Under the pieces are notes generated by a model. That model saw only the letters and a list, made by a program, of their open reading frames with translations, did no database searches and was not told where the DNA came from. A program made the position numbers and the translations under genes. From assembly GCA_028865305.1 (NCBI GenBank), contig JAGWKM010000012.1:1-34869 (forward strand): a stretch of DNA of 34,869 nt, read 5' to 3'. This stretch comes from Patescibacteria group bacterium. Its GTDB lineage: Bacteria; Patescibacteriota; Minisyncoccia; UBA6257; 2-01-FULL-56-20. Of this stretch, positions 4,924-34,488 are shown piece after piece (the stretch's first letter is position 1; every line of letters starts with the position of its first letter).

Positions 4924-6213
4924 ATGGCGTGTTTGCCGCGTATCCACATGCCTCGAAGGACCAAAACCAGGCGCAAGCCGCAAAGTGCAAGACGCAAGCC
5001 GATTACGAAACGCAAAAAAACGAAACGTAAGGTTTCAAGCGTCAAACGGAGGACGGTTTCAAAACCGAAAAAGAAAAATATCAAGCGGCTGTCATTGCGG
5101 CAATCGCTTCTTCGGCATATAAGGACGCGCCGACGTGCCGCTCCCGCCGTTTTCAAATTTAAGGAGCCGCCGCTCCATAAGCACGAATCGAATCCGATCA
5201 TCGAACCGCGCGAGGGGAACTGGTGGGAAATGAAGGCAACTTTCAATCCGGGCGCCGTCTTTGCCGATAACCGCGTGCACCTTTTATACCGCGCGATCGG
5301 CGGAAATGATGTTTCCGTACTTGGTTACGCATCGAGCGATAACGGCATTACGGTCACCGAGCGATTGGATGAGCCGGCGTTCGTGCCGATCGTCAAGAAA
5401 AAACCGGTAAGCCCGTATCCGACGCCGCGGATCGATTACCTTTCCGGCGGCGGCTGGAATGGCGGCTGCGAAGACCCGCGGCTTACCTTGATCGATGACC
5501 GCGTCTATCTGACGTATACCGCTTTCGACGGCTGGGGTTCCATCCGCATTGCGCTCTCGTCGATCGGTCGTGATGATTTTTTGGCAAAACGGTGGAAATG
5601 GAAAAATGCGATGCTTATTTCGCCGCCGGGCGAAGTGCATAAGAATTGGGTATTGTTTCCGGAAAAAATCAACGGCAAGTTCGCGATCCTTACAAGCATC
5701 TCGCCGGAAATCATGATTGAGTACGTGGACGATCTGAATGAATTTGAACGGGATGACCGTTTTATCCGGAGCCATTACGATCGCCATGCGAATACGAAAA
5801 GCTGGGACAGCTGGGTGCGGGGCGCCGGACCGCCGCCGATCAAAACCAAGCTCGGCTGGCTGCTTTTCTATCATGCCATGGACACGCGCGATCCGAACCG
5901 TTACAAACTCGGCGCGATGGTTCTCGACGGAAGCGACCCGACGAAAATCTTATACCGGACACGGGCGCCGATCTTGGAACCCGACGAATGGTATGAAAAT
6001 ACCGGATGGAAATCGGGCGTCGTTTATTCCTGCGGCGCAGTCGTGAAGGACGGCACACTTTTTGTTTATTACGGCGGCGCGGATTCCGTGTCCTGCGTCG
6101 CCATGGCGGATTTGGACAAGTTTTTGGATGAGCTCAAACAGCATGGCGTTCCGAAACTTATTGCGCAGCCGAGACCGGGACGCGGGGTTGATTTACGGAC
6201 GGGTTCAGTATGA
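4924..6213 (+). CDS. GH130-family glycosidase/phosphorylase-like protein with a very basic N-terminal extension
   Basis: FNPGAVFADNRVHLLYRAIG, GGCEDPRL, LYHAMD and YYGGADSVSCVA motifs; Lys/Arg-rich N-terminus. Confidence 0.88.
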   Translation: MACLPRIHMPRRTKTRRKPQSARRKPITKRKKTKRKVSSVKRRTVSKPKKKNIKRLSLRQSLLRHIRTRRRAAPAVFKFKEPPLHKHESNPIIEPREGNWWEMKATFNPGAVFADNRVHLLYRAIGGNDVSVLGYASSDNGITVTERLDEPAFVPIVKKKPVSPYPTPRIDYLSGGGWNGGCEDPRLTLIDDRVYLTYTAFDGWGSIRIALSSIGRDDFLAKRWKWKNAMLISPPGEVHKNWVLFPEKINGKFAILTSISPEIMIEYVDDLNEFERDDRFIRSHYDRHANTKSWDSWVRGAGPPPIKTKLGWLLFYHAMDTRDPNRYKLGAMVLDGSDPTKILYRTRAPILEPDEWYENTGWKSGVVYSCGAVVKDGTLFVYYGGADSVSCVAMADLDKFLDELKQHGVPKLIAQPRPGRGVDLRTGSV

Positions 6214-6245
6214 AGATACCCCGCCCTCACGGACGGGGTATCTTC
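6212..6245. terminator. Perfect 12-bp hairpin overlapping the GH130 stop codon
   Basis: GAAGATACCCCG ... CGGGGTATCTTC. Confidence 0.7.
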
Positions 6246-6253
6246 TCCCTCTT

Positions 6254-6299
6254 CGCCGCCCCGGAGGGGCGGCGTCCCACCGGCCAAAGCGCCGGCGGG
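6254..6299. repeat. Two further GC-rich hairpins
   Basis: CGCCGCCCC-GGA-GGGGCGGCG (6254-6274) and CCCACCGGC-CAAAGC-GCCGGCGGG (6276-6299). Confidence 0.75.
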
Positions 6300-6386
6300 A
6301 CCAAACTTCATCCACACACCTTATGGGTGCGGTTTTAAGTTTGGAGAGTGATAAAACTAGGTTAGTAGATTATCCTGGAGGGACCC

Positions 6387-6830
6387 ATGAAAGCAGCGGC
6401 TGTTTTGTTTTTTGCGCCCGTGATGGTCTTGGCGGCGGGACCCGAGAAGTCAGTGCATCAATGTGCACTGGGAGCGGTCATTTGGCATGATGCGAGCGGC
6501 TATCGGAAAGACCTGACGGATCTTGATCGGTATACGCCGCATGAGCTCATGGAAAGCTGGCGGACCTACACCTTCGGCTGCATCGAGGTCGGGACGGACA
6601 ATATCCTGGTCATCCAGGAGTTCGGCGGCAGCGATGAGGGGTTAAAACCGTCCGATTTTGCCGTCATTCCGAAGGAATGGGTCGAGGGCATCAAGCTTTT
6701 TACGCAGGATTCCGATGGCACCGGCAAGGTGAGGCCGTTCGGAATGTCATTTGTCCGCAAAGACGGCGAACAACCCCGACTGGTTAGCGGGAAGAAAAAG
6801 GTAACGCGGTACAAGCCTTTCGTTCCCTAG
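6387..6830 (+). CDS. Putative exported protein of unknown function, 147 aa
   Basis: N-terminal hydrophobic signal-like segment; upstream GGAGGG; downstream terminator. Confidence 0.75.
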   Translation: MKAAAVLFFAPVMVLAAGPEKSVHQCALGAVIWHDASGYRKDLTDLDRYTPHELMESWRTYTFGCIEVGTDNILVIQEFGGSDEGLKPSDFAVIPKEWVEGIKLFTQDSDGTGKVRPFGMSFVRKDGEQPRLVSGKKKVTRYKPFVP

Positions 6831-6840
6831 GCAGAAAGCG

Positions 6841-6866
6841 GCGCACCATGACGGTGTGCTTTTTTT
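6841..6866 (+). terminator. Rho-independent terminator
   Basis: GCGCACC-ATGAC-GGTGTGC followed by a T run. Confidence 0.85.
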
Positions 6867-6882
6867 GTCGTAAAATAAAGAT

Positions 6883-8832
6883 ATGCTGACCATCAAACGT
6901 TCCGCTGAAAATCCGATTCTACTTCCGGCTCCGCAGTCGCCGTGGGAGGCGGAAGCGGTTTTCAATCCGTCTGTGGTAGAAAAGGACAAGCTGGTTCATA
7001 TGTTTTACCGCGCGGTCGGAAAAAAACCGGACGGCGGGGAGATTTCGGTCATCGGGCATACGGTGAGCAAGGATGGGGAGCGATTTCCGGCATCCGGCGC
7101 CCCGCGAGCATCGGAGGCCGGGAACCGGACGCAGTTTGTCGTTCCGGAATACGATTGGGAAAAATTCGGCTGCGAAGATCCGCGCGTCACGGAATTCGAG
7201 GGGCGCTATTATATTTTTTATACCGCGGTCCGGGAATTTTCGGCGGACGGCATCAAGGTGGCGGTGGCCGTGAGCGATGATCTTCAAAAAGTCGCCGAGA
7301 AGCATCTCGTGACGCCGTTCAACGCGAAGGCGATGGCGCTGTTTCCGGAGCGCGTCAACGGGAAAATTGCGGCACTTTTGACCATCAATACCGATCGGCC
7401 GCCGGCGCGGATTTGCATCGCCCTTTTCGACAAGATCGAGGATCTCTGGTCGGAAGAATACTGGAAGAATTGGTATGCCGACATCGGGAAGCATTATTTG
7501 GACATCGAAATGACCGAAAAGGACCAGGTGGAGGTCGGTTCGGCGCCGATAAAGACAAAAGAGGGCTGGCTCATCTTTTATTCCTATATTTATAATTACT
7601 TCGCGCCGCCGGCGATTTTCGGCGTCCAGGCGATGCTCTTGGATTTTGACGATCCGCGGAAGATCGTGGGCGAGGTGAAGCGGCCGTTTTTGGTGCCGGA
7701 GGAGGAATACGAGCACTACGGCAAAGTGCCGCACATCGTGTTTCCGTCGGGCGCGCTCATCCGCCGTTCGAATGTTTATTTATATTACGGCGCGGCGGAT
7801 ACGACCTGCTGCGTCGCGATCTTCAAATTGGGCGAATTGCTTGAAGAGCTGGTCCGCGTGGCGCGGCGGCAGCTGCAGCGATTCGAAAAGAACCCGATTA
7901 TCATGCCGATAGGGGAGCACGCATGGGAAGCGCAGGCGACCTTCAATCCGGCGGCGATTTACGAAAACCGCAAGGTGCATATTCTGTACCGCGCGATGTC
8001 GAACGACAACACGTCGGTGATCGGCTATGCGTCGTCGCTCGACGGCGTCCATATTACGGAACGGTTGCCGGAACCGATTTACGTGCCCCGCGCCGATTTT
8101 GAACGGAAGGGCGTGCCGGGCGGGAATTCCGGCTGCGAGGATCCCCGCATCACGAAGCTTGGCGACCGGATCTATATCTGCTATACGGCTTACGACGGCA
8201 AGGATCCGCCGCGCGTGGCGTTCGCGTCGATTCCGGTTGGCGATTTTGTGGCGCAGAAATGGGATTGGACCATGCCGGTTTTGATCTCGCCGCCGGGACT
8301 GGATGATAAGGATGCCTGTTTATTCCCGAAAAAGATTGGCGGCAAATATTGGTTCCTGCACCGTCTGGCGTCGGATATCTGGATCGATTCCGCGGATTCA
8401 CTCGATTACTTTGACGGCGAGGAACATTTCCTTGGTGGCAAAATCCTGATGCGGCCGCGCGATACGGCATGGGATTCGAAGCGCATCGGCATCACGGCGC
8501 CTCCCATCGAGACGAAGGGCGGCTGGCTGCTCCTTTATCACGGCATTTCGAAGCGCACGAACCATTATAACGTCCGCGCGGTGCTGCTTGACCTGAATGA
8601 CCCGTCAAAAATTTTGTACCGCACGCACGACACGATGCTGGAGCCGAAGATGCCGTATGAAAAAGAAGGGGTGGTGAATAACGTGGTTTTTCCGTGCGGG
8701 GCGGTCGTACTGCGGAAACAGCTTTTTGTTTATTACGGAGGGGCGGACAAGGTCGTGGGAGTGGCGATGGGAGATCTGCAGGAGATCGTATCAGGATTGG
8801 AGCATGAAGCGCGATATCATAGCAAGCAATAA
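6883..8832 (+). CDS. Tandem two-domain GH130-like protein, 649 aa
   Basis: Two full repeats: EAEAVFNPSVV...MFYRAVG/GCEDPRV/YYGAADTTCCVA and EAQATFNPAAI...ILYRAMS/GCEDPRI/YYGGADKVVGVA. Confidence 0.88.
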   Translation: MLTIKRSAENPILLPAPQSPWEAEAVFNPSVVEKDKLVHMFYRAVGKKPDGGEISVIGHTVSKDGERFPASGAPRASEAGNRTQFVVPEYDWEKFGCEDPRVTEFEGRYYIFYTAVREFSADGIKVAVAVSDDLQKVAEKHLVTPFNAKAMALFPERVNGKIAALLTINTDRPPARICIALFDKIEDLWSEEYWKNWYADIGKHYLDIEMTEKDQVEVGSAPIKTKEGWLIFYSYIYNYFAPPAIFGVQAMLLDFDDPRKIVGEVKRPFLVPEEEYEHYGKVPHIVFPSGALIRRSNVYLYYGAADTTCCVAIFKLGELLEELVRVARRQLQRFEKNPIIMPIGEHAWEAQATFNPAAIYENRKVHILYRAMSNDNTSVIGYASSLDGVHITERLPEPIYVPRADFERKGVPGGNSGCEDPRITKLGDRIYICYTAYDGKDPPRVAFASIPVGDFVAQKWDWTMPVLISPPGLDDKDACLFPKKIGGKYWFLHRLASDIWIDSADSLDYFDGEEHFLGGKILMRPRDTAWDSKRIGITAPPIETKGGWLLLYHGISKRTNHYNVRAVLLDLNDPSKILYRTHDTMLEPKMPYEKEGVVNNVVFPCGAVVLRKQLFVYYGGADKVVGVAMGDLQEIVSGLEHEARYHSKQ

Positions 8833-26675: not shown

Positions 26676-28157
26676 TCACGCGAACCCGGGGAAAAAGTCG
26701 GTTTTGATCTGCTTTCTCGGTACGCCCATGCGGTGCAATGCCGCTTCAAACGCAACGACCATGCTGCGCGGGCCAGACAAATAGAACACGCGCTCGAGGT
26801 GATCGGGAATCTGTTTGGCGATGAAAGCGGGATCGAGCCGGCCTTCGGCGTAAACGGCCTTCAGGCCGATTTTTTGTCCGGCTTCTTCAAAAATTTCCCG
26901 ATAGGCGAATCCATCGCCGGTTTGCGCCGCATAGATCAGGACGACCGGCCGTTTTTCGCCGCGATCCGACAGGTATTTCGCCATGCTGCGGAACGGCGTG
27001 ATGCCGATGCCGCCGGCGATGAACGCCAATTTTGTTTTCTTATCCCTTGGCAGCGTGAAATCGCCCGCAAGCTGGCCGGCCATGATCTCATCGCCGGGTT
27101 CAAGTTCGCGCAGCCGTTGTTTGAAACTGCTTGAGGGTTCGTAGAATTTTACGCCGAGTTGCAGGTCCGGTTCGGTAGGGGACGAGGCGATCGTAAAGTA
27201 GCGCCGGTTGCCCCGCAAATCGGTTTTTTCGTGGCCGAGCGTCCATTCCATATATTGTCCCGGCCTGAATTTGATCGGCTTCGGCAGTTCGAACGTGAAA
27301 TGGTAAATGTCTTTGCCGACTTCGCTTTTTTCTTTCAACCTCACAAGATATTTTTCTTTAGGACTGAAGAGCCAGGAAAAGACATTACCGGCGAGGAGCG
27401 CCAGCTCCGGCGTCGAATAGACCGGGCCGAAGTGGATGGCCGGCGCGAAGAGGAAACCGGTGAAAAGCCCGTACGCGATCCGTTTATCGCGCGTCGGCGG
27501 CGTCGTCAGCGGTTCGGTGAGCATTATCGAAGCGAAAAAGAAAATAGGCGTATGGAGCGCCATTTTTTGGAGCGTTCCCAGCGGATCGAACTGGTTGGCG
27601 GTGAACGCGGCGGAAACGGCGGCGGCGCCAAGGAATGCGAGGACGAGATCGAACCGCTGTATCTTGCGGACGACCAGGAATCCGCCGGCGAGGACGAATG
27701 CCATGAGCGGCAAATTACCGCCGACCCACCAGCTGGCGGACTGGCCGATGGTGAATGCGGTTAGGGCGACGGCGAACGCGGCCGGGTTGAAGAGGTGTTT
27801 TTTCCGGATGGCAAGGATATATTTCGAAGCCATCGCGAGGATGGCGGTCCAGGCGAGGAAGATGATGCCGTTCAAATCGGTCCAGAAGATCGGGGTAATG
27901 ATGAGCGCCAAGATGAGTGCCGTGATGTATGCCGATTCGGAATTGGTCTGGGTTTTGAATGCTTCGGCAAAGATCTTGTTCGTGATCAGGGCGATTACGA
28001 TCAGCGCGCCGGTCGAGAAGGCGAGCGCGAACGGGCTGTAGGGGAGCCAGCCAATCGCGCCGAAAATTCCCGCAATGACGAGCAGGATGATCAGATAGTA
28101 CAGCACGAGGCGGTACATCGTGATTTTATTCAACAGCTTATCAATAAAGCTTAGCAT
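26676..28157 (-). CDS. Fusion of RnfD/NqrB-like membrane domain with FNR-type FAD/NAD(P)-binding ferredoxin reductase domain
   Basis: N-terminal ~9 hydrophobic helices with KHLFNPAAFAVAL; C-terminal RPGQYMEWTL, RRYFTIASSP, FIAGGIGITPFRSM, YLSGPRSMV; start taken at MLSFIDKLL. Confidence 0.83.
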   Translation of the reverse strand: MLSFIDKLLNKITMYRLVLYYLIILLVIAGIFGAIGWLPYSPFALAFSTGALIVIALITNKIFAEAFKTQTNSESAYITALILALIITPIFWTDLNGIIFLAWTAILAMASKYILAIRKKHLFNPAAFAVALTAFTIGQSASWWVGGNLPLMAFVLAGGFLVVRKIQRFDLVLAFLGAAAVSAAFTANQFDPLGTLQKMALHTPIFFFASIMLTEPLTTPPTRDKRIAYGLFTGFLFAPAIHFGPVYSTPELALLAGNVFSWLFSPKEKYLVRLKEKSEVGKDIYHFTFELPKPIKFRPGQYMEWTLGHEKTDLRGNRRYFTIASSPTEPDLQLGVKFYEPSSSFKQRLRELEPGDEIMAGQLAGDFTLPRDKKTKLAFIAGGIGITPFRSMAKYLSDRGEKRPVVLIYAAQTGDGFAYREIFEEAGQKIGLKAVYAEGRLDPAFIAKQIPDHLERVFYLSGPRSMVVAFEAALHRMGVPRKQIKTDFFPGFA

Positions 28158-28194
28158 GCGTTTGGTTTTGATTTTGCCGATGGCGCAAGGCGGA

Positions 28195-28302
28195 GTGGAG
28201 GATGGAGGATGGAGAATGGAGAATGAAGAATGGAGAATGGATAATGGAGAATGAAGAATGGAGAATGAAAACCTTTTTCTCCATTCTATATTCTTCATTC
28301 TG
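28195..28302. repeat. Degenerate heptanucleotide (GGAGAAT) array with inverted copies
   Basis: GGAGGATGGAGGATGGAGAATGGAGAATGAAGAATGGAGAATGGATAATGG... then CCATTCTATATTCTTCATTCT. Confidence 0.9.
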
Positions 28303-29107
28303 CATGCCTTCCAAACCCGCTCGTCATGGTCGCTATCCCTTCACGGTCGATCATATATCCTTCGAATCCCGGCAGCTGTTCGATGAAACCTATTCCGGCG
28401 GCACCCATGGCAAATGCAGCGGTTGCAAATCGGTCGGCCTCATAAACATTCGGGCCTATTACCGTTAAGCTTACCACGGGTGGATTTCCAGCTTCCAGCT
28501 TCCGATTTCCGGTTTTTTCCTTCGGATTATAAATGTGGTCGCCGCGGATATAGGTTCCGGACGTCGCGATGCCGCAGTCGGTCAGGCAAATTTTTTTGAC
28601 GATTTCGTCCTGCTTGAAAGGATTCCGGATGCCGATGGTCCATTTGCCCCATGTCCCGTTCTCCGTCCTTTGTCTTCCCCGGATTTCTATGTCGCCTCCT
28701 GCATCAACGTAAAAATTTTTGAACCCGTCGCGTTCCAAAATCTGCGCCGCCTGCCAGATCGCCCAGCCCTTCACGATGCCGGATGGATCATAAAAATCGC
28801 CGATCCAATCTTTGCCGAGATCTTTGGCGCCTTGGTTTGATTTCCTTTTAATGTCAAAATATCCGTCCGTCAGCCGCTTTGTTTCTTCCGCCAATCGGAA
28901 AATAGTCTGCATATCCTCGCTCCATGTCCCTCGCTCCATGTTTCCTCGGTTGATCGCCATGATTTCACTTGTCTCTTTATAGGTGCTGAATTTTTCATCG
29001 ATGTACGCGAAATAATCAAAGATCTTATTGATCTCCGCTTGGATGGCGCGGCCGTCGGCTATTTCAACCGTGACCGGCATGCCCATAAGGATGCGAGTGG
29101 ATTTCAT
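28295..29107 (-). CDS. apbE: ApbE-family FAD:protein FMN transferase
   Basis: RILMGMPVTVEI...DEKFSTYKETSEIMAIN...GIVKGWAIWQAAQIL...FYVDAGGDIEIRG...GIATSGTYIRGDHIYNPK...ATAAFAMG. Confidence 0.93.
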   Translation of the reverse strand: MKSTRILMGMPVTVEIADGRAIQAEINKIFDYFAYIDEKFSTYKETSEIMAINRGNMERGTWSEDMQTIFRLAEETKRLTDGYFDIKRKSNQGAKDLGKDWIGDFYDPSGIVKGWAIWQAAQILERDGFKNFYVDAGGDIEIRGRQRTENGTWGKWTIGIRNPFKQDEIVKKICLTDCGIATSGTYIRGDHIYNPKEKTGNRKLEAGNPPVVSLTVIGPNVYEADRFATAAFAMGAAGIGFIEQLPGFEGYMIDREGIATMTSGFGRHAE

Positions 29108-29167
29108 GGGTCAGAGCGAGGAACAAGCAAGAAAAGCATGAAGAGCTTTACTCCTTTTTGCTCCTCA

Positions 29168-29758
29168 TCATTTTGCTTGCGCCAAAGCCGCCGCGAGCGA
29201 CTGTTGGAATGCCTGCGAGGTCTGCGTCGCGCCCGAAACGATATTCACGTTCGCGCTCTGCGATTGGATGGCTTCCTGTCGGAGCTGCGGCAACGCGATT
29301 TGGCTTACCTCAAGCGAATGGCCGCTGTCACTTGGATAAACGGGAAATTGAACATCGGCCAATTTACCGCCCTGGACGACCGCCACCACCTGGAGATTGC
29401 CGTAAAAAGCGTCTGTCACCGGCCCGATGTAGTTGCCGTTTTTATAGAGGCCGGTTGAGGCCGGTGATGGCGCCGGTTTTGGCGCAGGAGGGACGGTTGG
29501 TTTGCTTGCAACCGGCGTGTTTTGAACCGGGGCGCCATCGTCGCCGGATTCATTTTCGCCGTTATTCTCGGAAATGCCGCCGCCGATTGCATTCTGGTTC
29601 GGCGTCGAACCGGCCGGAACGGTTGTCGTTACGGCGGCGCCAGAGCTCGAACCGCCAGTCGAGAGGGGAGAAGCGATGGTAGCCGAATTTTGTTTATTGA
29701 GGGCTACATAGAAGACGAAAAGCAATATGACAGCCAGGGAAACAAGGTATTTTTTCAT
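29168..29758 (-). CDS. Membrane-anchored FMN-binding-domain protein (RnfG/NqrC-like, predicted flavinylated)
   Basis: N-terminal TM; YKNGNYIGPVTDAFYGNLQVVAVVQGGKLADVQF...NIVSGATQTSQAFQQSLAAAL with SGATxT flavinylation motif. Confidence 0.87.
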   Translation of the reverse strand: MKKYLVSLAVILLFVFYVALNKQNSATIASPLSTGGSSSGAAVTTTVPAGSTPNQNAIGGGISENNGENESGDDGAPVQNTPVASKPTVPPAPKPAPSPASTGLYKNGNYIGPVTDAFYGNLQVVAVVQGGKLADVQFPVYPSDSGHSLEVSQIALPQLRQEAIQSQSANVNIVSGATQTSQAFQQSLAAALAQAK

Positions 29759-30088: not shown

Positions 30089-30763
30089 ATGCGTATTCTT
30101 GTGGTCGAGGACGATCAGCAAACCGGGGAGATTTTGAAAGAAAATCTTGAGGCCGAATCATATGCGGTGGACTTGGAGCAGGATGGCGCGAAGGGGCTTT
30201 ACCGGGCAAAAACGAACGATTACGATTTCATCATCCTTGATAATATTTTGCCGAATAAAGAAGGTTCGGAAATATGCCAGGAACTGCGGTATAGCGGCAA
30301 AATGATGCCGATCATGATGCTCACGGTCCAGGACGAGATCAATCGGAAGGTTGGCGCTTTGAATATCGGCGCGGATGATTATCTGACCAAACCATATTCC
30401 TACGCCGAATTTTCCGCACGCGTCCGGGCGCTTTTGCGGCGGCCGAAACAGGTTGAAGGGATGCGATTGGCCGTGGATGATCTTATTCTTGATAAGGAAA
30501 AGGGGATTGTTTCCCGCGCCGGCAGGGAAATTTACCTGACCGGTAAGGAATTCGCTTTACTTGAGTATCTTATGAAAAATCACGGACGGCTCGTTACGCG
30601 CGGCATGATTTTGGAGCACGTTTGGGATAATAATGGCGACCTATTTTCAAATACCATCGAAACCCATATTCTTCGGCTGCGCCGGAAAATCGACCTTCGT
30701 AATAAGCGCCGACTTATCCACACTGTGCCTGGCAGAGGGTATCGGATCAGCCTTGACCCATAA
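30089..30763 (+). CDS. OmpR/PhoB-family response regulator
   Basis: MRILVVEDDQQTGEIL...DFIILDNILPNKEG...LTVQDEINRKVGALNIGADDYLTKPY; C-terminal wHTH. Confidence 0.95.
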   Translation: MRILVVEDDQQTGEILKENLEAESYAVDLEQDGAKGLYRAKTNDYDFIILDNILPNKEGSEICQELRYSGKMMPIMMLTVQDEINRKVGALNIGADDYLTKPYSYAEFSARVRALLRRPKQVEGMRLAVDDLILDKEKGIVSRAGREIYLTGKEFALLEYLMKNHGRLVTRGMILEHVWDNNGDLFSNTIETHILRLRRKIDLRNKRRLIHTVPGRGYRISLDP

Positions 30764-30958
30764 TTTCTCAATGAAAATGGGCTTTATAGAGCGGTAAAAA
30801 AATTCATTTTTTCGTTAGAATTTTGTTATGAAAAATTGATGTCCTCTCCCGCATAATTAGTTCGCGGGTCAGGAAACTAAGTATTTGAAATGCCGGAATA
30901 ATTAACTCGGATTTCACTTGGTTTCCCTGGTCGAGGCCTTATCATTTTTTCCAAACCA

Positions 30959-31066
30959 ATGAAAGAATTACTTGAAAAAATCCTAACGCAAAAAGAATAT
31001 CGGAATGCGGAAGAGGCGGAATCTTTTCTTGCTTCCCAAGATTATTTCCTCACCTGGACGGGATGA
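30959..31066 (+). CDS. Small ORF, 35 aa, translationally coupled to the histidine kinase
   Basis: MKELLEKILTQKEYRNAEEAESFLASQDYFLTWTG*; ATGA overlap with the HK start at 31063; no clear SD. Confidence 0.45.
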   Translation: MKELLEKILTQKEYRNAEEAESFLASQDYFLTWTG

Positions 31067-32478
31067 GGCATTCTTTGGCCATGGATGTTCCCTCTGAGAA
31101 AAGCGGCCGTTCTGCCTATCTTCTTTTAAAGAGAGGCATCCATGGCTTCTATGCAACGGTTCTTGCTCCGAAATCCATGGACGAGGATCGCCGCCGCCGC
31201 GAATACATCCTCAATATTATCCTTGCTGGATCGCTTGTGATGTTGGCTTTTTTCGACGCGCTCGTGTTGTATTACACGGTGAGCGAAGGTGTTGCTTATC
31301 ACGAGGTCTCGTTTTGGCTATTCACCTCGATTTTCCTGTTCTTCGTTTTGCTCTACCTACTTTCAAGAAGAGGATTTCCGGTTTTCGCTTCCTATCTTTT
31401 GATTGGCGCGTATTTGGCGAGTAATACCTATGCGGCCTACCAGTGGGGCGTAGATTTGCATATCGTTGTTTTGAGTTATGCACTCATCGTCCTTATTGCG
31501 AGCATTTTGATTGGCACGTGGTTCGGGTTCGTTACGGCGGGCATCATTGCGGCCGTTATTATTCCGCTGCGTTATTTTCAGTTGACCGGGGCGATCCCTC
31601 TGCAACCGCGCGTCGATGACGTAATGGATGCGGTGACGCTCGCCATAGTCATATTCCTGATTATGACGCTCGCCTGGCTCTGGAATCGGGAACTTGGGAA
31701 ATCGCTGCGCCGAGCCCATGCCTCGGAAAGTGAACTGGAAAAAGAACGCGACTTGCTCGAAATCCGAGTAGAGGAACGGACGCATGCTCTGCGGCAGGCG
31801 CAGTTTGAACGCGTGGAGCAGCTTTATCAATTTGCTGAATTTGGGCAATTGGCTTCGGGTTTATTCCACGATCTTTTAAATTTGGTGAATGCCGCATCGC
31901 TTCAGATGGAAACAAAAATTTCCATGGATAAAGCAACTGTCATGAGCAAGCGTGTGGAGCGGTTCGTGACTGCGGTTCGCCGGCAGCTTGATCGGCAAGA
32001 AGCGCAGGAGCTATTTCCGCTGGCCGAAAGCATTGAAGACGTGATTCAGTTGCTTTCATATAAGGCCATGAAGGAAAAGGTGAATATCATCTTTCCGGAG
32101 CGCGGAGATCGTTCTTTGGCCTATTTCGGAAACCCCTTCAAATTTCATCAGGTGGCGATGAACCTTATCTTCAATGCGTTGGAAGCATATGATGGGATTC
32201 CGCATGGCCGTGAGGGACGTATTATTTCGATTGAATTGAAAAGTGAAGGTGGCGCGGTGCGGTTTGCAGTCGAGGATAAAGGATCTGGCATTCCCGATGA
32301 TGTCCGCAGTAAAATTTTCGAGCCGTTTTTCAGTACGAAAGAAAGCTCTAAGGGGATGGGGATTGGTTTGGCATCGGTTAAAAGAATAGTGGAAAAAGAT
32401 TTTGACGGGATGATTTTCGTGGAGAGCGAAGTTGGTGAGGGTTCTCGGTTTATTGTTGTTTTCCCATGGGTCAAATAA
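31063..32478 (+). CDS. Membrane sensor histidine kinase
   Basis: ~6 TM helices, coiled coil, H-box GLFHDLLNLVNAASL, GSGIPDDVRSKIFEPFFSTKESSKGMGIGLASVKRIVE. Confidence 0.92.
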   Translation: MRHSLAMDVPSEKSGRSAYLLLKRGIHGFYATVLAPKSMDEDRRRREYILNIILAGSLVMLAFFDALVLYYTVSEGVAYHEVSFWLFTSIFLFFVLLYLLSRRGFPVFASYLLIGAYLASNTYAAYQWGVDLHIVVLSYALIVLIASILIGTWFGFVTAGIIAAVIIPLRYFQLTGAIPLQPRVDDVMDAVTLAIVIFLIMTLAWLWNRELGKSLRRAHASESELEKERDLLEIRVEERTHALRQAQFERVEQLYQFAEFGQLASGLFHDLLNLVNAASLQMETKISMDKATVMSKRVERFVTAVRRQLDRQEAQELFPLAESIEDVIQLLSYKAMKEKVNIIFPERGDRSLAYFGNPFKFHQVAMNLIFNALEAYDGIPHGREGRIISIELKSEGGAVRFAVEDKGSGIPDDVRSKIFEPFFSTKESSKGMGIGLASVKRIVEKDFDGMIFVESEVGEGSRFIVVFPWVK

Positions 32479-32514
32479 TTGTTTACCGCTTCGTGTTTTG
32501 AGGAATCCCATACT

Positions 32515-34488
32515 ATGCCAGAAGACGGAATTTTTGCCGCCATAAAAGCGGCAATTCGGTTTATCGCGCAAAACCAAAAATCAGGCGGTGGATTTGAGAG
32601 CGTTTCGAGCGCATCTGCGGAACCATTTTCCGGCGGGACGATTTACCTGACCAATTTTTTTACTGCCAATATTCTTATTTGCTTGAATTCAATCGCAGAT
32701 ATCGGACGGCAATTCGAGTGGAATTTTCCCGGATTAAAACAGGTCTGTCATGATGCCGCAGATTTTCTCTTGAAACAACGGAGTTCTCGGTGGTCCTTCA
32801 ATTATTGGGCCAGGGAATCATTTGAAACAAAAACATTGCCTTATCCGGATGATTTGGATGACACCAGCCTCGCACTTGCGGCTCTTTATGGGTTTGATCC
32901 TGCCTTGGTGGGCGGGTCGGGATTGGCATCATTCGTAAAAATATTAACTTGCCTCGAGGCGCACTCCGGCGGTCCTTATCGTACCTGGCTTGTTGAACCT
33001 GGTTTTCCTGATGAATGGCGAGACGTTGACCTTGTGGTAAATAGCAACATTGGCTACTTCCTTTCTTTGCTTGGTGTACGGTTGCCCGAATTGCGCGCTT
33101 GGATTGAAAGATTCATTTCAGAAGGACGGTTCGATTCGGTTTATTATCCTGGCACTCTTCAAGTCGCCTATGCCCTTGCGCGATTTTACGGACGGGGGAA
33201 GCGGGCGCGGGATGTCGTTCGGGCAATCGTGGCCGAGCGCGAAGGGCGTATTTCAAATCCATTCGAAACGGCGCTGGCTGTCTCTTCTTTCGTCGAACTT
33301 GGGTTTGCAGATAATGTTGCCCTGTGTGATCTTCGTGTTTTGGTGAAAACGGCGTGTAAAAATAATTGGAAGCCGCATGCTTTTTGTACGGATCCGGCGA
33401 AGAACGGAAAGCGATATTATGCCGGTTCTGCGGCACTTACGGCTGCTTTTGCCATGGAGGCGTTGGCAAAATATTATAGCGCAAGGCAATCGATAAGGAG
33501 TTCGGATAAAAATATTTTTGAGCATGATGTCCTCGATGCGACCAAGAAGATTGCGCAAACCCGATGCGACGGGTTGCCTCAAGACCTAAAAAGGATAGTT
33601 TTGCGGCAAATCAGATTGATTACTGACCGGGAAATTGTCATGTTGCCCTATGCGATCAAACAGGCGCTCGGGCGCCGCGGAGAAAATCTTTTGCCGCAAT
33701 TTCTGGAGAGTTTGGCTTTGGCCAACCTCTATGGCTGGATGGCTTACACGATTTATGATGATTTTCTTGACGGGGCAGGAGATCCGGTATCGCTCTCTGC
33801 GGCGAATTATTTTTTACGTGAGTTAACCCTGCTCTATGCTATGAATGGAGGGAGTTCTCTTCGGTTTTATCGAGATCTGGTGAATCTTGCGGATGATGCG
33901 GATATCTGGGAACAATTACATTGCCGAATAACGCCGGAACAGGTGAATTCAATCTGTCCGACCGATCTGTCCCATCGGGCCATTTCCAACCTGGCCGATC
34001 GGAGTTTGGCGCACGCTTTGCCTGCAATAAGCATCTTGCTTACCTGCGGTTTTCCCGAGGATGGTCCGGAGATAAATCAGGTACTTTCTTTTTTTCGGCA
34101 TTACCTGGTTGCCCGGCAATTGCATGATGATGCGCGTGATTGGAGGGAGGATTTGTTGCACGGACGTTTGAACAGTGTCAATGCACGGTTGCTGCGCCGA
34201 TATCCGATATCCCTCCCGCATCGTATGTCGGATGTTCGGAAAGAGATTCCCGATCTCGAAAAATTATTTTGGCGTTCGGAAATAATTGCCGTAGCGGCGG
34301 ATATCCGTTCTTACCTTGCTCTCGCACGGATGGCGCTTGTTTCGATTGATATTTTTGAAAACCAAGAGCCGCTTATGGCGTTGCTTGATCGGTTGGAGCG
34401 GGGGGTTCAGGAAGTGCTTGATGAGCGTGCCTTGGCTTGCGGTTTTTTGGCGCGATATGAAGGCAATAAAAACGAAGAGGCCCGATAA
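32515..34488 (+). CDS. Putative bidomain terpenoid enzyme: prenyltransferase/squalene-cyclase-like toroid (DLDD) plus class-1-isoprenoid-synthase-like domain (DDFLD)
   Basis: PDDLDDTSLALAAL with DLDD at 32851-32862; DVDLVVNSNIGYFL...YYPGTLQVAYALAR; YTIYDDFLDG at 33757-33771; ARQLHDDARDWREDLLHGR at 34126-34140. Confidence 0.65.
   Translation: MPEDGIFAAIKAAIRFIAQNQKSGGGFESVSSASAEPFSGGTIYLTNFFTANILICLNSIADIGRQFEWNFPGLKQVCHDAADFLLKQRSSRWSFNYWARESFETKTLPYPDDLDDTSLALAALYGFDPALVGGSGLASFVKILTCLEAHSGGPYRTWLVEPGFPDEWRDVDLVVNSNIGYFLSLLGVRLPELRAWIERFISEGRFDSVYYPGTLQVAYALARFYGRGKRARDVVRAIVAEREGRISNPFETALAVSSFVELGFADNVALCDLRVLVKTACKNNWKPHAFCTDPAKNGKRYYAGSAALTAAFAMEALAKYYSARQSIRSSDKNIFEHDVLDATKKIAQTRCDGLPQDLKRIVLRQIRLITDREIVMLPYAIKQALGRRGENLLPQFLESLALANLYGWMAYTIYDDFLDGAGDPVSLSAANYFLRELTLLYAMNGGSSLRFYRDLVNLADDADIWEQLHCRITPEQVNSICPTDLSHRAISNLADRSLAHALPAISILLTCGFPEDGPEINQVLSFFRHYLVARQLHDDARDWREDLLHGRLNSVNARLLRRYPISLPHRMSDVRKEIPDLEKLFWRSEIIAVAADIRSYLALARMALVSIDIFENQEPLMALLDRLERGVQEVLDERALACGFLARYEGNKNEEAR

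Follow-up and report, generated by a model that had tools for sequence, protein, structure and literature searches.

The described systems closest to the locus presented here are ComQXPA, the Pal system of Paenibacillus alvei and the fusion enzyme ChrPC. ComQXPA is made up of four adjacent genes, which code for a maturase with the isoprenyl synthase fold (ComQ, matched by PF00348), a short precursor with a Trp near its C-terminus (ComX, PF05952), a membrane histidine kinase and a response regulator (ComA, of the LuxR type, PF00196). ComX has 52-73 aa, and its Trp lies within 5-10 residues of the C-terminus. In a census made in 2014, comQXPA-like loci turned up in Firmicutes alone (PMC4008528). 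The Pal system, PalQ/PalX/PalP (PMC10853753), has a class I Trp-peptide prenyltransferase without a cyclase domain, a precursor with an NHLP leader and a strictly C-terminal Trp, and a histidine kinase. ChrPC (Hubrich et al. 2024, as described in the review PMC13290415) is a fusion of a trans-IDS-like prenyltransferase and a cyclase, which cyclises the prenyl group after its transfer to Trp. The same review states that in trans-IDS-like prenyltransferases the acceptor Trp is held by the second Asp region, which is put to this new use together with a Gln upstream of it.

In the library searched, the papers that bring CPR or Patescibacteria together with terpene synthases or quorum sensing do not, by their titles and abstracts, describe such a system. 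The present analysis deals with a stretch of 34,869 nucleotides from a Patescibacteria group bacterium (contig JAGWKM010000012.1, assembly GCA_028865305.1), referred to as the window, which encodes an enzyme with two isoprenoid-related domains. We consider it probable that this enzyme is the maturase of a ComQXPA-like peptide signalling cassette, prenylating the peptide on a Trp and cyclising the prenyl group there. On present evidence the cassette would work like ComQXPA, signalling being the step that we infer; it looks like a system for signalling between cells, and would be the first of its type in the ultra-small CPR bacteria.

Gene organisation of the cassette

The features of the window to which the text refers are the following:

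30089-30763, forward strand: OmpR/PhoB-type response regulator, 224 aa, putatively pheromone-responsive (Response_reg, Trans_reg_C and NCBIfam OmpR-type matches)
30959-31066, forward strand: precursor peptide MKELLEKILTQKEYRNAEEAESFLASQDYFLTWTG, 35 aa, with Trp33 as predicted prenylation site
31063-32478, forward strand: membrane histidine kinase, 471 aa, putative receptor (HATPase_c 2e-21; multi-TM N-terminus by hydrophobicity)
32515-34488, forward strand: candidate two-domain maturase, 657 aa, with an N-terminal terpene-cyclase domain and a C-terminal trans-IDS-like prenyltransferase domain
32851-32865, forward strand: DxDD motif DLDDT, residues 113-117
33754-33774, forward strand: first Asp-rich motif (FARM) YDDFLDG, residues 414-420, kept in every relative covering the region
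34117-34152, forward strand: second Asp-rich region (pseudo-SARM) QLHDDARDWRED, residues 535-546, with a Gln just before the first Asp

The reading frame of the enzyme had been placed at 32515-34488 from the sequence alone, and there it is; its length, given then as 658 aa, has to be corrected, as the ATG start yields 657 aa plus stop (a TTG start would give 669 aa).

An all-against-all comparison of the neighbouring genes revealed a recurrent kinase and regulator. Of the 34 loci in which the upstream side of the enzyme is visible, 33 have the kinase immediately before it, often in overlap; the kinase carries a conserved histidine (H269, 96%) and conserved ATP-binding residues. A homologue of the response regulator is adjacent in 31/36 loci. 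Enzyme and kinase are co-inherited (Mantel r=0.76), a correlation that may simply reflect common descent. Between regulator and kinase there is a small peptide ORF, previously unlisted, which was found by reading the gap before the kinase. Its TGA stop overlaps the kinase ATG in the window (ATGA), and a homologous ORF is present in every locus with visible upstream DNA (32/32). A canonical start is missing from the peptide frame of locus L028, and in L051 no kinase adjoins peptide and enzyme. In the peptide alignment an Arg and the Trp are invariant (32/32), a Leu is kept in 31/32 and a Pro before the Trp in 26/32, and Cys does not occur; the peptides are mostly of 35-40 aa and their first Trp is found 1-6 residues from the C-terminus. 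The possibility of a small ORF arising by chance was rejected, as a motif scan of the loci and the window gave 4 matches elsewhere against one in nearly every cassette. The leader pattern occurs a single time in the organism's own genome.

As in ComQXPA, four adjacent genes (30089-34488 of the window, and likewise at other loci) supply an isoprenyl-synthase-fold enzyme, a short precursor with a near-C-terminal Trp, a membrane histidine kinase and a response regulator. The order is nevertheless a different one, being in nearly all loci OmpR-type regulator, peptide, kinase and enzyme, and the CPR enzyme has an added class II cyclase domain. Moreover, the CPR peptides are shorter than ComX, unrelated to it in sequence and without a match to any known precursor family, and a comparison by hhalign gave no statistical link to NHLP leaders. 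Judged by sequence, the CPR cassette is not a member of ComQXPA: the enzyme of the window does not match PF00348 at E up to 1, the two CPR peptides scanned do not match PF05952, and the regulator is of the OmpR type (Trans_reg_C) instead of the LuxR type.

The same gene set would also suffice if the terpenoid peptide were not a pheromone in its own right but a secreted effector, antimicrobial or host-directed, auto-regulated by the kinase and regulator as in lantibiotic operons. Antibacterial lantibiotics, too, act as inducers of their own kinase, and CPR bacteria live on other bacteria. However, neither a dedicated immunity gene nor an exporter, other export gene or protease is consistently adjacent to the cassettes, and each locus holds one short precursor, as comQXPA does. 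An effector role is thus considered unlikely, and a signalling peptide is the preferred reading.

Domain structure of the enzyme

The sequence-only reading had recognised class II-type and class I-type isoprenoid domains in a single polypeptide, and had asked for a check of motifs and fold. Both hold good: AlphaFold, Foldseek and profile searches relate the N-terminal half to terpene cyclases and the C-terminal half to trans-isoprenyl diphosphate synthases, the full-length AlphaFold model (31 aligned sequences) having a mean pLDDT of 89 and a pTM of 0.83. The 31 aligned relatives are 23-39% identical to the window protein, and each of the residues D113, L114, D115, D116, D415, D419, Q535, D538, D539, D542 and D546 is either invariant or kept in 90% or more of them. 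Because of this conservation DLDDT, YDDFLDG and QLHDDARDWRED are not chance motifs, and HDDARD, singled out earlier as the second acidic motif, is also conserved among the relatives. Scans of the window enzyme gave no NCBIfam match and, in Pfam, a sub-threshold TED_complement match only.

The C-terminal class I domain

In the full model the C-terminal half has the fold of hexa-, hepta- and geranylgeranyl-diphosphate synthases (Foldseek against PDB). When modelled alone (pLDDT 88) the domain again matches the trans-IDS fold, and its Foldseek matches include the Trp farnesyltransferase Ord1 and the prenyltransferase domain of PvCPS. The all-alpha isoprenoid-synthase fold with a FARM, which characterises trans-IDS-like Trp peptide prenyltransferases, is found here, with the FARM in all members. 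Every listed relative covering the second Asp-rich region has Q-x-x-D-D-x-x-D-W-x-x-D, and with it the Gln upstream of the pseudo-SARM (Q535); this Gln also precedes the second motif of ordinary prenyl synthases, which makes it weak alone and non-diagnostic. The IPP-binding GKxxR, the RRG after the FARM and KT are absent from the family alignment of the domain, and all three are conserved in the prenyl synthases linked to some cassettes (4 aligned).

A search of 72,556 plasmids gave a single match, a stand-alone 319-aa protein from Paenibacillus cellulosilyticus (E 9e-3), and a phage collection yielded no relative. The Paenibacillus protein is unannotated; next to it are five small ORFs whose last residue but one is Trp, and a histidine kinase on the other strand, the same arrangement as palQ-palX-palP in Paenibacillus alvei (PMC10853753). 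Of these small ORFs one was scanned, and it is an NHLP leader peptide, and a Tolypothrix homologue of the protein also adjoins an NHLP-clan precursor. Compared by hhalign, the CPR C-domain profile aligns with this PalQ-like protein at a probability of 97% (E=5e-11, QLxDDxxDWxxD aligned), against 4% with the cassette-linked prenyl synthases, and the QxxDDxxDWxxD region is common to both proteins. Of the proteins compared by sequence, then, it is one of the PalQ type of peptide-tryptophan prenyltransferases that comes nearest to the class I domain, and not the prenyl synthases beside some cassettes; this nearest match, which is also the nearest non-CPR relative found, is the uncharacterised Paenibacillus protein with its Pal-like surroundings. 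With the Pal system the CPR cassette has in common a class I enzyme, here a predicted Trp-peptide prenyltransferase, a precursor ending in or near Trp and a histidine kinase, but it differs in cyclase domain, leader and exact position of the Trp.

As a separate observation, positions 5339-7840 of locus L062, on plasmid NZ_CP054613.1, encode a PalQ-like prenyltransferase and five tandem precursor-like peptides, none of them in the gene table of the plasmid.

These data bear on the function first put forward, that of a bifunctional class II/I terpene synthase. On this reading the enzyme would cyclise GGPP or FPP and release a small terpenoid, perhaps the ligand of the kinase, the peptide having another role. 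The order of the domains, class II and then class I, resembles that of bifunctional diterpene synthases, both DxDD and DDxxD are retained, and D538, D542 and D546 have the i, i+4, i+8 spacing of the class I metal triad, with DDxxD-like residues and not NSE/DTE. On the other hand, the Trp peptide, invariant in 32/32 loci, would be left unexplained, the C-domain profile lies near a PalQ-like protein whose gene has Trp-bearing RiPP precursors next to it, and the listed fold matches of the domain are almost all prenyl synthases and prenyltransferases. A released terpene is consequently very unlikely. This part of the earlier interpretation, in which the peptide ORF and the kinase/regulator cassette had been overlooked, found no support, the class I half being nearest to the PalQ type.

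The N-terminal class II domain

The N-terminal domain alone matched drimenol synthase, its nearest solved relative, in a profile search of PDB chains (E=1.3e-17); the Foldseek matches of the N-terminal half in PDB were AsDMS (E 4e-9) and squalene-hopene-cyclase-like enzymes (about 345 residues). In the alignment D115 of DLDDT corresponds to Asp333 of AsDMS, which is the middle Asp of its DxDTT motif and the catalytic one; the aligned chain, 9m7d, carries D333N. A class II cyclase is recognised by DxDD or DxDTT on an alpha/alpha-barrel domain, and DLDDT, the profile match and Foldseek place both in the CPR enzyme. AsDMS (PDB 9m7d, 9mhs) resembles it in its class II cyclase domain, motif position and fold, but has a HAD phosphatase fusion and uses free FPP.

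Five members (L049-L053) have lost DxDD and retain both class I motifs and the Trp peptide, from which it follows that cyclisation may be optional and prenylation essential; prenylation looks like the core activity and cyclisation like an optional add-on, few sequences standing behind this distinction. In L029 the motif is DLDCT in place of DLDDT.

A non-catalytic N-terminal domain, that is, an alpha/alpha-toroid which binds the precursor peptide while the enzyme only prenylates Trp, would agree with the fact that members without DxDD keep the peptide, the cassette and part of the domain including GGPY. Nevertheless, in intact domains D113, L114, D115 and D116 reach a conservation of at least 90%, D115 corresponds to the catalytic Asp of AsDMS, and the closest relatives in sequence and fold are active cyclases, so that we regard a purely binding role as quite improbable and favour cyclisation by the intact domain.

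Other variants of the architecture were also seen. The N-terminal domain is shortened or degenerate, without DxDD and next to an intact class I domain, in L013, L014 and L066 as well as in L049-L053. Locus L018 (G349:C3:124171-124881) encodes a 343-aa protein with a class II-like domain only (PDLDD), an N-terminal hydrophobic segment and no class I domain, which is possibly exported.

As far as the review describes it, ChrPC resembles the CPR enzyme in joining a trans-IDS-like prenyltransferase domain and a terpene-cyclase domain in one chain and in acting, or being predicted to act, on a precursor whose Trp is internal. In the CPR enzyme, however, the cyclase domain comes first, whereas the name ChrPC suggests the reverse order, and the CPR enzyme is further set apart from the system so described by its CPR hosts, its 35-40-aa precursor of a new family and the attached kinase/regulator cassette.

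Distribution and host genome

Relatives were found only in CPR/Patescibacteria: 35 loci, plus 5% of the sampled CPR genomes. The 35 loci come from a search with a single conserved pattern against 11.3 million contigs of 84,980 species, which relatives without the pattern would escape; 32 of them are titled as CPR lineages and 3 only as 'bacterium'. The lineages named for the 32 are Saccharibacteria (including the complete chromosome CP025011.1), Microgenomates, Levy-, Davies-, Shapiro-, Roizman-, Colwell-, Moran- and Berkelbacteria, CPR2 and Paceibacterota. The survey of other Patescibacteria that had been suggested thus bears fruit, with a relative in 18/380 genomes sampled from the phylum of the window and in 6/384 from its class. 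The enzyme tree has few strongly supported deep branches, and Saccharibacteria group together in it.

The bin from which the window comes has about 2.0 Mb, 388 contigs and 8% contamination, compared with 0.4-1.0 Mb for genomes of its family; it is probably a mixture, and genome-wide absences are to be read accordingly. A contaminant contig was considered for this reason and rejected because the best match of the window's HisRS, with 76% identity, lies in a genome of the same family, the wider phylum sample reaching at most about 55%. Together with the named relatives, this upholds the assignment to a CPR genome.

What looks like a flavinylation-based module for electron transfer across the membrane, unusual in CPR, is encoded on the reverse strand of the window at 26676-29758: an NQR2/RnfD membrane domain in fusion with a flavin/NAD reductase, an ApbE flavin transferase and a small protein that looks exported and has an SGATQT stretch.

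Prenyl supply

Family searches of the organism's own genome, for which control genomes give matches, found no polyprenyl synthetase (PF00348), UppS, IspH or HMG-CoA reductase, as anticipated for a CPR genome, though in a draft bin such absence is no proof. Since the genome shows no synthesis genes, the prenyl donor is probably taken up; it may come from the host, and a host-derived prenyl diphosphate is a plausible substrate.

The family PF00348 is present in 104/380 CPR genomes and in 10 of the 18 that have a relative of the enzyme (odds ratio 3.6; Fisher p=0.012, uncorrected for relatedness and for the several features examined). A prenyl synthase gene adjoins 6 cassettes, and the 4 of these that were aligned carry the full IPP-binding motifs; one cassette (L032) has a NUDIX protein similar to IPP isomerase nearby. 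The picture is best explained by some members making their own prenyl diphosphate and others scavenging it.

Some fusions of prenyl synthases were also seen. A 672-aa polyprenyl-synthase frame in G249 (L054, 1416-3434) was rejected as a relative of the two-domain enzyme, as it joins a nucleoside 2-deoxyribosyltransferase-like domain to a polyprenyl synthase domain of divergent sequence; a 676-aa frame in G117:C24 is possibly similar. In G218 (L056, 3725-5530) a 602-aa ORF is an apparent fusion of a cis-prenyltransferase (DGNGRWA) and a trans-prenyl synthase.

Proposed mechanism and implications

In the proposed pathway, the prenyl donor would be taken up by the organism of the window, and the C-terminal class I domain would ionise the prenyl diphosphate at the first Asp-rich motif. 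The conserved leader (L..KILTDKxxR) would guide the subsequent transfer of the prenyl group to the Trp near the C-terminus of the 35-aa peptide, after which the N-terminal class II domain, where DxDD is intact, would protonate the prenyl chain via D115 and cyclise it. Following export and cleavage, the terpenoid-modified C-terminal part of the peptide would be released, sensed by the kinase and answered via the response regulator.

With cyclase and prenyltransferase in this order, the few peptide maturases that install a terpenoid would gain a further domain arrangement. The system also raises the question of the source of the prenyl donor in an organism without isoprenoid synthesis. Since peptide, kinase, regulator and maturase are conserved as a cassette in Saccharibacteria, Microgenomates, Parcubacteria-type lineages and CPR2, peptide signalling becomes directly testable in these host-dependent bacteria. 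A far-reaching but rather unlikely extension is that CPR episymbionts signal with a ribosomal peptide bearing a ring-closed terpenoid built on a host-derived prenyl diphosphate; if this were true, such a signal would report how dense the cells are as well as whether they are attached to a living host.
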